Positions 25,639-54,627 of a stretch of 64,000 nucleotides of DNA are shown here, piece by piece. The notes beneath the pieces were generated by a model. The model did no database searches and was not told the DNA's origin. It saw only the letters and a program-made list of their open reading frames with translations. The first letter of the stretch is position 1. Every line of letters begins with the position of its first letter. Where the stretch lies: NCBI RefSeq assembly GCF_021021555.1, contig NZ_JAINWA010000003.1:806001-870000 (forward strand). Reading direction: 5' to 3'. Made by a program: the position numbers and the translations under genes. This stretch comes from Teretinema zuelzerae. GTDB taxonomy: Bacteria > Spirochaetota > Spirochaetia > Treponematales > Treponemataceae.

Positions 25639-26655
25639 CTATCTGCGGCCGTTTTTTCGGAAGCCTTCCACGCGGGCGCTCGCCGTTTCGGAAAACGAAC
25701 TGACGATGCCCCGGGAAAGATACTGATAGCCCAGCCCGGCGACCATGGCGGCGTTGTCCCCGCAAAGAGACAAGGGAGGGAATACGCACTCTATGTCCGT
25801 TCGTTCGGCTAAAAGCTTGCGGAGACGGGAATTGGCCGCCACCCCTCCTCCCGCGACGACGGTTGTCAGACCAGTGTCTTCGACGGCGCGGAATAACCGG
25901 GACAGCAGTATTTTTACAGCCGCTTCCTGAAAGGCCGCGGCGAGGTTTTCATCGGTTCGTGGATACGAGGGATTCCAAAACTGGTCGATCTGGTTTATCG
26001 CCGCCGTCTTGAGCCCGGAATACGAGACATCGTATCGATGTTCGCCCTTGTGAAGGGAGGGCATCGGGAAGGCGGCCGCGCGCGGATCCCCTTTTTCGGC
26101 GAGGCGGTCGATGACGGCGCCGCCCGGATATCCAAGGTTGTAGAATTTAGCGACCTTGTCGAAGGCTTCTCCCGCGGCGTCGTCTATTGAAGTCCCGAGA
26201 ACTTCGATCTGGTCGTAGCCGGCGACTTTGCAGATGATCGTGTGTCCGCCTGAAACCAGCAGGCCGAGATAAGGATAGGAGACATCGGCCGCAAGATGAG
26301 CGGCATAGAGATGGGCGAGCATGTGGTTGACCGCGATGAACGGCTTTCCGAGGGACCAGGAGAGGGTTTTTCCGAAGGTCAGTCCCACCAGCAGGGAGCC
26401 CATGAGTCCCGGCCGGCCGGTCGCGGCGATTCCGTCGATTTCGCCGGGCTTTAATGAGGCTTTATCAAGAGCCTCGCGTACGACGGGCAGAATCCATTCA
26501 GTATGCTTGCGGCTCGCGATCTCGGGAACCACGCCCATCCATTCGGCATGAAAGGGAATTTGGGTTGCCACGACATTGGATATGATCGTTCTGCCGTCCT
26601 CTACGACAGAGGCGGCGGTTTCATCGCAGGAAGTTTCGATCCCAAGGATTTTCAT
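25639..26655 (-). CDS. tsaD: tRNA N6-adenosine threonylcarbamoyltransferase TsaD
   Basis: 338 residues of the ASKHA fold. MKILGIETSCDETAAS starts the protein, the iron-binding motif NHMLAHLYAAHL lies near residue 110, and GLLVSGGHTII and VVAGGGVAANSRLR follow. With TsaB and TsaE it makes t6A37 in ANN-decoding tRNAs and is essential in most bacteria. Its ATG overlaps the stop of the upstream deacetylase (ATGA), so it is coupled to that gene and may be part of the sigma-factor operon. Confidence 0.97.
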   Translation of the reverse strand: MKILGIETSCDETAASVVEDGRTIISNVVATQIPFHAEWMGVVPEIASRKHTEWILPVVREALDKASLKPGEIDGIAATGRPGLMGSLLVGLTFGKTLSWSLGKPFIAVNHMLAHLYAAHLAADVSYPYLGLLVSGGHTIICKVAGYDQIEVLGTSIDDAAGEAFDKVAKFYNLGYPGGAVIDRLAEKGDPRAAAFPMPSLHKGEHRYDVSYSGLKTAAINQIDQFWNPSYPRTDENLAAAFQEAAVKILLSRLFRAVEDTGLTTVVAGGGVAANSRLRKLLAERTDIECVFPPLSLCGDNAAMVAGLGYQYLSRGIVSSFSETASARVEGFRKNGRR

Positions 26656-27788
26656 TCCTCGAAATCTCCCTCCACGGCTATGCGGGCTATTGTGGAAAGA
26701 GAAAACCCTTGAGCCGCTAGTTCGGGGTACATTTCAACGAGTATATTCGCCAGATCATTGGACCAGATATGGCCTATCATGATGGCCGTTCCTTTTTTTT
26801 CCGCTATGTGCATGCCGTTGCGCACGGCTTCCATTATCTCGATCCGATCCTGGCTATTGTCAAGAAACACTGCACGCTCCCAAATGGTCATATTCAAATC
26901 CCGAGCCGCGGCCGGAGCGGCCGTCGCGGAATTAGTCCGGGAGTCGAGGAAATAAATACCCCGCTCCCGCGCGATCTCCAATACGGTCTTCATGGCTTCG
27001 CGGTCGGCGGTGATCATCGATCCTTCATGATTGTTCATGCCCGCTACCGGCCACACCTCGTCAAGATTTTCCCGCACCACAGCGCGGATCTCGTCGGCGC
27101 TCATGCCCTGCCTGATCGCGCCCGGACCCGGATCCATCTTGAGATTCAGGGCTTGCATAGGCTGATGAAGAATAATTTCCTTTCCCGAGGCTCTGATCCG
27201 TTTCGCCGCTTCCCGAGAATACTGTAATCCCGGAAGAACGGCAATAGTGCACGGAAAGGGAAGCCGGAGGAAGGGTTCAAGCTGGGCAAGATTATGTCCC
27301 GCGTCGTCGAAAACGAAAAGGAGAGTTCCCTTTCTCTTCGGAGGCAGCGGTTTTTCAACCGGGGGAGCCGCAGGCGCCGCGACCTTTAGCGGTTCCGTTT
27401 TTTGCGGAGGAACCGGTTTCCGAGGCTGCGGAGCCTTGACAGCCGGCGGAACGCCCCTTGCGCCGGCGGGTTCTTTGACGGGCGGCGGCGATTCAGGCTT
27501 TTGTGCCGGCGCGGTGCGCTCGACCGCCGGCGCTGCGACCGGGGAAGAAGCGGATGGCGCTTCGACCAGGGGCGAAGAAGCCGGCGACTCGCGAGCGGCG
27601 GACGGAGGAGCTTCCGGCGGCGAAGCCCCGGGAGATGACGGACGGGAGACAGCCGGAGCCGACGACGCCGGCTGTGCGGAAGAGGCTGACGGGTTTTCCG
27701 GAAAATGGCGTACGGCCAAAAGGACGGCGGATATAACAAAAACCGCCGCAAGGAGAATCAGGTTGAACCTGAATTCCGCGGCGGTCAT
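26652..27788 (-). CDS. Divergent polysaccharide deacetylase family protein (DUF610/YibQ type), membrane-anchored
   Basis: 378 residues from ATG 27788. A hydrophobic anchor (about residues 6-25) is followed by a Pro/Ala/Ser-rich linker of about 110 residues. The catalytic-type domain begins at GTLLFVFDDAGHNLAQLEPFL and contains ILHQPMQALN, GMNNHEGSMIT, YFLDSRTN and MIGHIWSNDL, as in divergent polysaccharide deacetylase 2. It should act on the periplasmic side, probably on cell-wall glycans. The ATG overlaps a 19-codon Lys-rich reading frame. One extra base in an A7 tract would fuse the two, giving a Lys-rich cytoplasmic tail before the membrane anchor. Confidence 0.85.
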   Translation of the reverse strand: MTAAEFRFNLILLAAVFVISAVLLAVRHFPENPSASSAQPASSAPAVSRPSSPGASPPEAPPSAARESPASSPLVEAPSASSPVAAPAVERTAPAQKPESPPPVKEPAGARGVPPAVKAPQPRKPVPPQKTEPLKVAAPAAPPVEKPLPPKRKGTLLFVFDDAGHNLAQLEPFLRLPFPCTIAVLPGLQYSREAAKRIRASGKEIILHQPMQALNLKMDPGPGAIRQGMSADEIRAVVRENLDEVWPVAGMNNHEGSMITADREAMKTVLEIARERGIYFLDSRTNSATAAPAAARDLNMTIWERAVFLDNSQDRIEIMEAVRNGMHIAEKKGTAIMIGHIWSNDLANILVEMYPELAAQGFSLSTIARIAVEGDFEE

Positions 27789-27844
27789 TTTCTTTTTTTG
27801 CGTGCGGTTTTCTTTTTACGGGTTGTTTTCTTTGTCGGAGCCAT
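27785..27844 (-). CDS. 19-codon Lys/Arg-rich leader ORF before the deacetylase
   Basis: ATG at 27844 to TGA at 27785 encodes MAPTKKTTRKKKTARKKRK. The stop overlaps the deacetylase start (ATGA). A promoter with a perfect TTGACA, a 17-nt spacer and TATCTT ends 8 nt before this ATG, in the same layout as other leaderless genes here. The ORF contains an A7 tract (27793-27799); adding one A joins it in frame to the deacetylase. It may be a coupling leader peptide or the true N-terminus separated by a frameshift or sequencing error. Confidence 0.5.
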   Translation of the reverse strand: MAPTKKTTRKKKTARKKRK

Positions 27845-27852
27845 CGGTCTCA

Positions 27853-27881
27853 AAGATAAAGACCGGAAGCTCCGCTGTCAA
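27853..27881 (-). promoter_or_regulatory. Promoter for the Lys-rich leader ORF and deacetylase
   Basis: Minus strand: TTGACA (27881-27876, overlapping the sigma-factor stop codon), 17-nt spacer, TATCTT (27858-27853), then 8 nt to the leader ATG at 27844. Confidence 0.55.
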
Positions 27882-28705
27882 CCGTATACGAGCTCCCGCA
27901 GTTCGGAGGATCGGGTTTTAAGCTTTCGAAGCGCCCTGAGTTCGATTTGCCTGATGGTTTCCGCTGAAACGCCGTACTGGCCGCCGATTGTCTTCAGAGT
28001 CTGCGGTTTTCCTTCGTTCTGCAGATTATACCGCTTCATCATGATGTCGCGTTCGGTATCCTTGAGATCCGATAAAATATTCACCAGCGAATCCTGCGTG
28101 TACTTTTTCATAAATTCTTCTTCAGGATTATAGGTGGTGTCCGGAATCAGATCCTTGAGGGAGGCTGAATCCTCTGAATCGAGCTGCACATCGAGGCTGG
28201 TCACCGCGCCGGAGCACCGCATGATCTCGCACACGTCGCGCAGGGAAAGATTAAGATGGTCGGCAAGCTCCTGTGCGTTCGGCAGGCGGGAGAGCTTCTG
28301 GAACAGCTCGGACGACGCGCGGCGGATCCGGTTCGCGAGCTCCTCCTTGCGGAACGGCAGGCGGATGAGCCTCTTTTTATTCGCGATCGCGCGGGTGATG
28401 GACTGTTGAATCCACCAGCAGGCGTAGGTAGAGAATCTGACATTGTAGCCGAATTCGTATTTCTGGGCCGCGGTGATCAGCCCGAGATTACCTTCCTGAA
28501 TAATGTCGAGCAACGGCATATCAGGTGCGGCGTATTTTCTGGCCACGGTTACAACCAGACGCAGATTGGACTCGATCAGTTTTTTTCTAGCGCAAATGTC
28601 TCCAGCCTGTATCTTCTTCGATAATTCAAGCTCTTCATCAAAACTAAGCAACGGATACTTTCTGATTTCTTTAAGGTACTCATTTATTGAATCTTGATCG
28701 CACAT
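27878..28705 (-). CDS. RpoS-like group 2 sigma-70 family factor
   Basis: 275 residues. Region 1.2 (DSINEYLKEIRKYPLL), region 2 (LIESNLRLVVTVARKY, LLDIIQEGNLGLI, RFSTYACWWIQQSITRAI), region 3 and region 4.2 (helix-turn-helix LKTIGGQYGVSAETIRQIELRALRKL) are complete. The absence of region 1.1 and the size match RpoS-like alternative factors rather than the housekeeping RpoD. It is preceded by a sigma-54-type promoter with a 10-nt leader and a GGGGG ribosome site, recalling rpoS control in Borrelia. The deacetylase and tsaD lie downstream on the same strand and could be read from the same promoter. I do not assign a symbol because orthology to RpoS is not proved. Confidence 0.9.
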   Translation of the reverse strand: MCDQDSINEYLKEIRKYPLLSFDEELELSKKIQAGDICARKKLIESNLRLVVTVARKYAAPDMPLLDIIQEGNLGLITAAQKYEFGYNVRFSTYACWWIQQSITRAIANKKRLIRLPFRKEELANRIRRASSELFQKLSRLPNAQELADHLNLSLRDVCEIMRCSGAVTSLDVQLDSEDSASLKDLIPDTTYNPEEEFMKKYTQDSLVNILSDLKDTERDIMMKRYNLQNEGKPQTLKTIGGQYGVSAETIRQIELRALRKLKTRSSELRELVYG

Positions 28706-28725
28706 AATGCCCCCGACACCTAATA

Positions 28726-28742
28726 AGCAAGAATCATGCCAA
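28726..28742 (-). promoter_or_regulatory. Sigma-54 (-24/-12) promoter of the RpoS-like gene
   Basis: Minus strand TTGGCATGATTCTTGCT: GG and GC are separated by exactly 10 nt and the core TGGCA-N6-TTGCT matches the RpoN consensus except for one base. The expected start site is near 28715, ten bases before the ATG. Confidence 0.75.
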
Positions 28743-28812
28743 GTTCATCAGGAGTAAAACAAGATGTACATTTCTATATATAGTAACGGTTTTCATCCAG
28801 AGAGATAAAGGT

Positions 28813-52282: not shown

Positions 52283-53211
52283 GCAGGATCGATGTACAAT
52301 ATACCTCCGATTCGGTGAATGAAACCCTCCCTCCCCGCCTTCCGGCTCCGGACGCAGGCGCATCCGGAACAGGAGAAACCGGCGTCATACGAACGCTCTG
52401 GTACAATCAGGGAGAGGATCAGTTTCTCCGGCTCGACGACTCCATAGAAGTCCCCTCCTTTCCGGTGCATCACGACATCCGCTCGCATCGTCCCCCCGTT
52501 TTATATGAAGAAAATCTCGCAAAGGTGCTGCGCCAATGCGTACGAGCAATACCCTCTCTTTTCGCCGGCACAACCTGGTATTTCGATCCCGTTTCGATAC
52601 TGACGCCTTCGTTTTTCAGGATCGACGAATGGAATGGCGCCCGATATCTCTACGTGTGCCGCCTCGATCTCGCCGCCCGTCCCCTGGAAATGAACATCCT
52701 CGCGCAGGGCTCGAACGACCGGACGCATCAATACCTGAGCCGGCGGCTCTACTTCGAATGCGACTGGTTTCCACTCGCCGGCGGCCCGGAAGGGGCATTC
52801 GACATAGAAGCTTCGATTCCGGCTACCTGGAAGGGAGAAGCCGGCCAGGGATACATGATCCACGGGATCTGGATGGACTCGGACATCAACAAGTTTTTCA
52901 GCAAGCTGATCCTCCCCCCGGGGATCAGGAACCACCCGTATTATCCGCTCACCTGCAAGCGGCACTGCGTGAGCATGAACGCGGCCGGCCGCCGGAATCC
53001 GGGAGCGCTCCACGCGGCGAGAAGCTTCATCGAACCGGCGCTCGAGGACATTCTGTCGTACCTCAATACCTATTCCTTTTCGGAACTCGCGCCGCTGTTC
53101 GTCGGTTTAAAAAAAGATGTTCCCGAAGAGCTTTCGCAAGAATGGAAAAATCTCAGCGTACGCCCCTACCTCAACGAACAGGACAACAAGGAGTATCAAA
53201 TTGTTTTTTAA
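52267..53211 (+). CDS. Conserved spirochaete-type protein, unknown
   Basis: 314 residues, soluble, no signal peptide. The middle reads as a mixed alpha/beta domain rich in aromatics (FAGTTWYFDPVSILTPSFF, YLYVCRLDLAARPLEM, YFECDWFPLAGG). I do not recognise a family. Its stop overlaps the TTG start of murD by 11 nt, so it is the first gene of the murD transcription unit and may act in wall synthesis or division. Confidence 0.75.
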   Translation: MNRNTSRIDVQYTSDSVNETLPPRLPAPDAGASGTGETGVIRTLWYNQGEDQFLRLDDSIEVPSFPVHHDIRSHRPPVLYEENLAKVLRQCVRAIPSLFAGTTWYFDPVSILTPSFFRIDEWNGARYLYVCRLDLAARPLEMNILAQGSNDRTHQYLSRRLYFECDWFPLAGGPEGAFDIEASIPATWKGEAGQGYMIHGIWMDSDINKFFSKLILPPGIRNHPYYPLTCKRHCVSMNAAGRRNPGALHAARSFIEPALEDILSYLNTYSFSELAPLFVGLKKDVPEELSQEWKNLSVRPYLNEQDNKEYQIVF

Positions 53212-54627
53212 CCCGCCCCCTTTCAAAACCCGCTCTGATCTCGCAGGTCTCAAGGTCACCGTCATGGGGCTCGGCCTTAACGGCGGAGGTTTGGCGACCG
53301 CGCGTTTTTTCGCCGCAAGCGGAGCCCTGGTGACGGTTACGGACAAAAAAACCGCGGAAGAACTCGCTCCGAGCGTCGCGGCTCTCGGCGACTTCCCGAG
53401 CATCCGCTTCGTACTCGGCACGCACGAGCTTTCCGATTTCCAAAACGCGGACATCGTAGTGAAAAACCCCGGCGTTAAAATGCAGGGAAACGAGTACCTC
53501 GCGGCGGCGAAATGCATAGAAACGGACATATCGGTTTTTCTCCGCTTCAGCGCATCGCCCATACTTGCGGTAACGGGAAGCAAGGGAAAGTCCTCGACCG
53601 TCAGCGCGCTTCACTTCGGCCTCAATGAAACAGGACCGAAGGCCCTGCTCGGGGGAAACATCACCGTCAGCCCGCTCACCTTCCTCGACGAGACGGGACC
53701 GGACGTTCCTGTCGTACTGGAGCTTTCAAGCTGGCAGCTCGCGGACCTGCGGGGACGAGGACTCCTCAAGCCCCGCATCGCGATACTCACGCCCATCATG
53801 CCCGATCATCAAAACTGGTACGGCGGAATGGAGCCCTACGTCGCGGACAAAAAGCTCATATACGCGGACATGGATTCATCGTCGAACCTTCTGTGCAACC
53901 GGGACGACCAGTGGGGTCCCGTATTCGCAGAGGAAATAGCAGAAAAACAAAACGGCCCGCGCGTTCGCTGGTATTCAGGAGAACCGCTGGATGAATATCT
54001 TTGCGGGGCATGGCTCGACCCGGACGGCAGAGGCCTCATGAGGAGCGAACCGTGCGGAACGCCGGTAGAAATTCTTCCCGCGGAACTCTCCGTTCCCGGA
54101 AGCCACATGCGCCAAAATCTTCTAAATGCCGCACAGGCGATGGTGCTGTTCGGACGCGATCCGGCGAAGACAGCCGAAGCCCTGTCCCGGTTCCCGGGCA
54201 TTCATCACCGCCTGGAGTTTTTCCACGAATGGGGGGAGTAAAACTCTACAACGATTCGGCAGCGACCATACCGGAAGCCGTCGCGGCGGCCCTCTCCTCG
54301 TTCAGCGAACCGGTCGTCCTCCTCTCGGGCGGCACCGACAAGAATCTCGACTTCGCTCCCCTCGCCCGGGAAGCGCACCGGGCGAAGGCCGTCTTTTTGC
54401 TGGCGGGAACGGGAACGGATAAACTGATACCCCTTCTGCGCGAACAGGGAGTCGCATTCAACGGCCCCTATCCCGATCTCGGCGCCCTTCTCGAAGCGGC
54501 GAAGAAAACCGCCCGGGCAGGCGACCGGGTCGTGTTTTCACCCGGAGCGACCAGCTTCGGACTCTTCCTCAACGAATTCGACCGCGGCGCAAAATTCAAG
54601 GAGACGGCAATCCGCGTGTTTTCCTGA
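53201..54627 (+). pseudogene. murD: UDP-MurNAc-L-Ala-D-Glu ligase murD, interrupted by a frameshift
   Basis: The start is TTG 53201, with AAGGAG 7 nt upstream. The first frame (347 residues to TAA 54239-54241) covers the Rossmann and ATP-binding domains: GSKGKSSTVSALHF, ELSSWQLADL, PDHQNWYGG. It ends HHRLEFFHEWGE. The rest of MurD continues in the +1 frame as GGVKLYNDSAATIPEAVAAAL and runs to 54627 with DRVVFSPGATSFGLF. One extra G in the G6 tract at 54231-54236 restores a single protein of about 475 residues. MurD is essential, so a sequencing error, slippage or phase variation is more likely than loss. Confidence 0.85.

Follow-up and report, generated by a model that had tools for sequence, protein, structure and literature searches.

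Escherichia coli SddA (YibQ), a member of the divergent polysaccharide deacetylase family PF04748, deacetylates denuded septal glycan strands (PMC12440217), and two Asp and two His residues are needed for its activity. Leaderless genes have been reported in 6 of 18 Spirochaetes genomes, where they make up a mean of 3.9% of genes (PMC3160421). Long-read assemblies, for their part, carry homopolymer indel errors, described as single-base offsets that leave pseudogene-like gene pieces (PMC8011154, PMC12007338). The locus studied here, in a stretch of 64,000 nucleotides from Teretinema zuelzerae (the window), can be set beside all three.

The deacetylase ORF of the window matches PF04748 over residues 159-369 (E 3.8e-67; 225.9 bits against a cut-off of 27.5), the family to which SddA belongs, and aligns with PDB 2nly (E 1.8e-28). 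In that alignment, identical residues of 2nly stand opposite the DD of FVFDDAGHN, the H of ILHQPM and the H of NNHEGS; equating these Asp and His with those of SddA, by motif and not by an alignment to SddA, the window protein carries both Asp and both His. It differs from the E. coli enzyme (PMC12440217) in the basic tail, the membrane anchor and the Pro/Ala-rich linker that precede the domain, and its gene is flanked by a sigma-factor gene and tsaD, whereas that of SddA lies with envC. We infer that the product would be a membrane-anchored periplasmic deacetylase, with the basic tail forming the cytoplasmic side of the signal-anchor segment.

As read directly from the letters of the window, the deacetylase ORF (378 aa) is preceded on the same strand by a short ORF, MAPTKKTTRKKKTARKKRK followed by a stop codon, in which 11 of the 19 codons specify Lys or Arg (Table 1). 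The stop codon of the short ORF and the deacetylase start overlap as ATGA (27788-27785), and an A7 run (T7 on the plus strand) marks a one-base shift between the two frames. An earlier note on this DNA had drawn attention to the Lys-rich ORF, the A7 run, the ATGA overlap and a TTGACA promoter, and all of them are present as it described. It was also right that the promoter is aimed at the ATG of the short ORF and not at that of the deacetylase, the -10 box ending 8 nt before ATG 27844, and that the one-base offset at A7 separates the short ORF from the frame of the anchor. It offered three readings of this arrangement: a true leader peptide, RNA-polymerase slippage yielding two N-termini, or a sequencing error.

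Table 1. Features of the deacetylase locus (positions are those of the window)
Feature	Positions	Strand	Basis
Sigma-70-family sigma factor gene, 275 aa	27878..28705	-	Pfam Sigma70_r1_2, r2, r3, r4
Promoter TTGACA-17-TATCTT, 8 nt before ATG at 27844	27853..27881	-	Scan; orthologue geometry
19-codon K/R-rich ORF, probable N-terminal cytoplasmic tail of deacetylase	27785..27844	-	Sequence; in-frame orthologue tails
A7 run, site of one-base frame offset	27793..27799	-	Sequence
PF04748 deacetylase: anchor, Pro/Ala-rich linker, catalytic domain	26652..27788	-	Pfam, PDB 2nly, N-terminal alignment
Strong hairpin then U tract, inside anchor codons	27735..27787	-	Fold z; synonymous shuffles

Orthologues of the deacetylase were sought in 59 genomes (58 relatives and the window's own), of which 51 gave a match. 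Within the genus, 10 of the 11 other genomes matched, G009 being the one without, and the locus of G003 (L010) is cut by a contig end, which leaves nine readable same-genus orthologues. Each of the nine has a single unbroken frame running from the ATG through a basic tail into the membrane anchor. The tails measure 9 to 35 residues and are similar in charge but differ in their residue letters; that of L011 is short, with 3 Lys or Arg in 9 residues. In the N-terminal alignment none of the nine has a Met opposite the Met that the window carries at 27788, and neither a separate short ORF before the deacetylase nor a split gene with the ATGA arrangement of the window occurs among them (0/9 in both cases). 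A sigma-factor homologue lies 36-89 nt upstream of the deacetylase start at all ten same-genus loci, the window included.

This alignment shows that the conserved start is not the deacetylase ATG of position 27788. Because the orthologues run in one frame behind the same promoter and this ATG is unconserved, the short ORF would represent the native N-terminus of the deacetylase. Most likely, the separate Lys-rich ORF is no real feature, and the native N-terminus has been split by an error. The leader peptide proposed earlier thus finds no counterpart in the orthologues, where no separate ORF exists and the basic tail is in frame with the anchor in every case, whereas the basic cytoplasmic tail that the earlier note expected on a fused product is borne out by their Lys/Arg-rich tails.

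The promoter was evaluated by scanning positions 27300-28800, which returned a single sigma-70-like site, on the minus strand (TTGACA at 27881-27876, a 17-nt spacer, TATCTT at 27858-27853). With a match of 10/12 and 0.6 sites expected in shuffles, the site alone is not significant. It is not a chance match, because the same geometry recurs in all nine readable same-genus orthologues: TTGACA (eight) or TTGACG (one), a spacer of 17-18 nt and TATnnT, with distances from the -10 box to the ATG of 8, 11, 8, 9, 9, 9, 9, 8 and 8 nt. The -35 box of the window shares bases with the TGA that ends the sigma-factor gene, as it does in L003 and L009.

Leaderless genes are recognised by a -10 box 5-11 nt before the start codon without a Shine-Dalgarno sequence, and the distance in the window is 8 nt; the best Shine-Dalgarno match is 1-2/6 in eight of the orthologues and 4/6 in L011. 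Since the -10 box lies so near the ATG, the deacetylase mRNA is probably leaderless or nearly so. The likeness to published bacterial leaderless genes (PMC3160421) lies in the -10 box directly before the start codon and the missing Shine-Dalgarno sequence, and the difference is that the leaderless state is here deduced from promoter position only. The comparison of promoter and start covered 47 distinct loci, 13 duplicates having been dropped. Outside the genus, 18 of 36 loci had a promoter score of at least 9 at a distance of 4-13 nt, a count biased by the choice of start according to the best promoter, with GTG and TTG allowed. A literature search for leaderless mRNA or transcription start sites in Treponema returned no relevant paper. 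The leaderless promoter is conserved in the genus, but it is of a known kind, since leaderless Spirochaetes genes are already in print (PMC3160421).

Whether other genes of the same assembly are broken in a like manner was evaluated over 800 kb of the window's own genome (G000; 22% of the assembly), compared with approximately 1.2 Mb from three same-genus genomes. The 296 genes with a homologue gave 11 candidate rows at nine places, and three of these genes (murD, holA and one further gene) are frame-broken inside the gene at homopolymers, the two halves abutting in each as for a one-base offset. The murD gene (window ~53183-54615, plus strand) breaks near 54229 at a G6 run; its pieces cover TIGR01087 positions 1-314 and 312-438, and three same-genus homologues read through this point in one frame. 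Because the other four genes with a Mur_ligase_C match are MurE, MurC, MurF and FolC, the split gene is the only MurD of the assembly. The holA gene (L166 and L167; G000:C3 near 1086765, minus strand) has its one-base offset at a C5 run, and its abutting pieces match TIGR01128 as 1-182 and 178-314, other hits falling below the cut-off. The third break, in a gene of the 600-aa class (L137, the R119 homologue; G000:C3 near 1063758, minus strand), lies at a C4 run. Bacteria in general need both MurD and HolA to live; a viable cell is hardly expected to be without the two, so that error is the simplest account of these breaks. Candidates R62, R87, R90, R163, R355 and R813 were taken as 5' extensions or opposite-strand ORFs and set aside, R90, R163 and R355 after inspection and R62, R87 and R813 by their alignment extents only. 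With the reference genomes as target, three raw candidates were obtained in 255 genes.

The homopolymer spectrum of the assembly is only mildly short. In 800 kb, A/T runs are plentiful at length 8 (116 runs) and length 9 (24 runs). For G/C runs of length 7, the count is 8 where extrapolation gives 13.9 (p 0.067). Gross homopolymer undercalling, at which the first 400 kb had hinted, was weakened by the full 800 kb and is not adopted here.

Together, these data argue strongly that the deacetylase split is a sequencing or assembly error, with one base off in a homopolymer. No other reading has as much support, since two single-copy and normally essential genes, murD and holA, also break at homopolymers in the same assembly, and of the three options in the earlier note this is the one that fares best. 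The offset at A7 is of the same type as those in murD, holA and the third gene. Against it, none of the three other breaks is in an A run, all of them being at G or C homopolymers, and the assembly shows no gross shortage of homopolymers, in which it also differs from the described long-read indel errors (PMC8011154, PMC12007338). We stop at strong confidence, and go no higher, because of the mild spectrum, the candidates found in the reference genomes and the location of the other breaks in G/C runs.

A base truly lost from the genome would leave the 19-codon tail to be translated up to its TGA, with reinitiation at the overlapping ATG producing an anchored deacetylase devoid of the tail. The ATGA places the start codon exactly at the stop, the anchor itself lies downstream of ATG 27788, and such overlaps have been described as a basis of termination-reinitiation in work that names Spirochaetes in its discussion (PMC6728339). 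We nevertheless regard this as unlikely: the breaks in murD and holA could not be rescued in the same manner and point to error, and none of the nine relatives has the arrangement.

The sequence behind the A7 run folds strongly, and any regulatory reading of the locus draws on it. The region reaches -35 kcal/mol over 96 nt (z -4.2), and its best terminator-like hairpin, at -26.6 kcal/mol, was equalled by 1 of 300 synonymous shuffles; as background, 1 of 150 G000 genes reaches -20 kcal/mol and about 10% (14/150 and 15/150) reach -14 kcal/mol. Strong hairpins with T tracts occur at 4 of the 10 same-genus loci, the window included. Hairpins like that of the window are seen in L002, L003 and L011 and are absent from most relatives. 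When the first 150 nt were tested against synonymous-codon shuffles, the nine orthologues gave a combined p of 0.09 (0.013 once the window that had prompted the test was added), and a conserved terminator in the 5' coding region was accordingly rejected; an earlier test with 25 shuffles had looked stronger. An Rfam search of 27600-28100 yielded nothing above threshold; its one hit, STnc240, scored 21.7 bits where the gathering score is 55 and is put down to chance. The hairpin could serve to stimulate frameshifting or to terminate transcription, and it is treated as a lead.

One such use would be recoding at a genuine A7 site, by -1 ribosomal frameshifting or by polymerase slippage, so that tailed and tail-less forms are both made. 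The shift needed is indeed -1, an A_AAA tetramer stands in the 0 frame and the hairpin begins approximately 5 nt after it. The codons read CGC AAA AAA AGA AAA TGA, though, so that no X_XXZ_ZZN heptamer is formed and only the tetramer fits, and A_AAA is described as less efficient than A_AAG (PMC4066793). As to slippage, the prone length is given as nine in many genomes and as eight in some IS elements (PMC1088944), and sites are counted from A or T runs of about nine or more; the present run has seven. With no orthologue split, recoding of either kind is improbable, more so than reinitiation, and the polymerase slippage put forward in the earlier note is unlikely for the same reasons.

Slightly less probable again is a strain-specific switch combining the A7 run and the hairpin, in which frameshifting would yield the tailed enzyme and reinitiation at ATGA the tail-less one, while the hairpin may also terminate the sigma-factor transcript. 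If true, such a switch would set the orientation or the partnering of the enzyme at the membrane, and a terminator inside the next gene would be opened by ribosome loading at a leaderless start. Least of all can we credit an attenuator-type leader peptide, on which a ribosome would sense the Lys/Arg codons ahead of a terminator made of the hairpin and U tract: promoter, basic codons and terminator-like hairpin with its T tract do follow in succession, but terminator-like hairpins are patchy across the orthologues and the basic stretch is part of the deacetylase itself in all nine, for which reason this reading was rejected.

If the split is a one-base assembly offset in the homopolymer, with the base misread and not missing from the chromosome, the gene would be expressed as follows. 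The TTGACA/TATCTT promoter, set in the end of the sigma-factor gene, would drive a transcript with hardly any 5' leader, on which ribosomes would start the deacetylase at ATG 27844. The Lys/Arg-rich tail would stay in the cytoplasm and orient the single membrane anchor by the positive-inside rule, and the Pro/Ala-rich linker would keep the catalytic domain on the periplasmic side.

For annotation, this means that no leader peptide should be entered and that the deacetylase should be shown as starting at ATG 27844 and carry a warning about its frame, as should murD and holA in this assembly. The more interesting residue of the finding is the conserved leaderless promoter. In 400 kb of the window's own genome (G000:C3:640001-1040000), a promoter stands 5-11 nt ahead of 21 in-frame ATGs of long ORFs, compared with 2.5 for each out-of-frame control frame, and in 800 kb of a second genome (G005) the figures are 43 and 1.5, so that this geometry is shared by other genes. 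This promoter enrichment suggests that leaderless transcripts are common in the genus.
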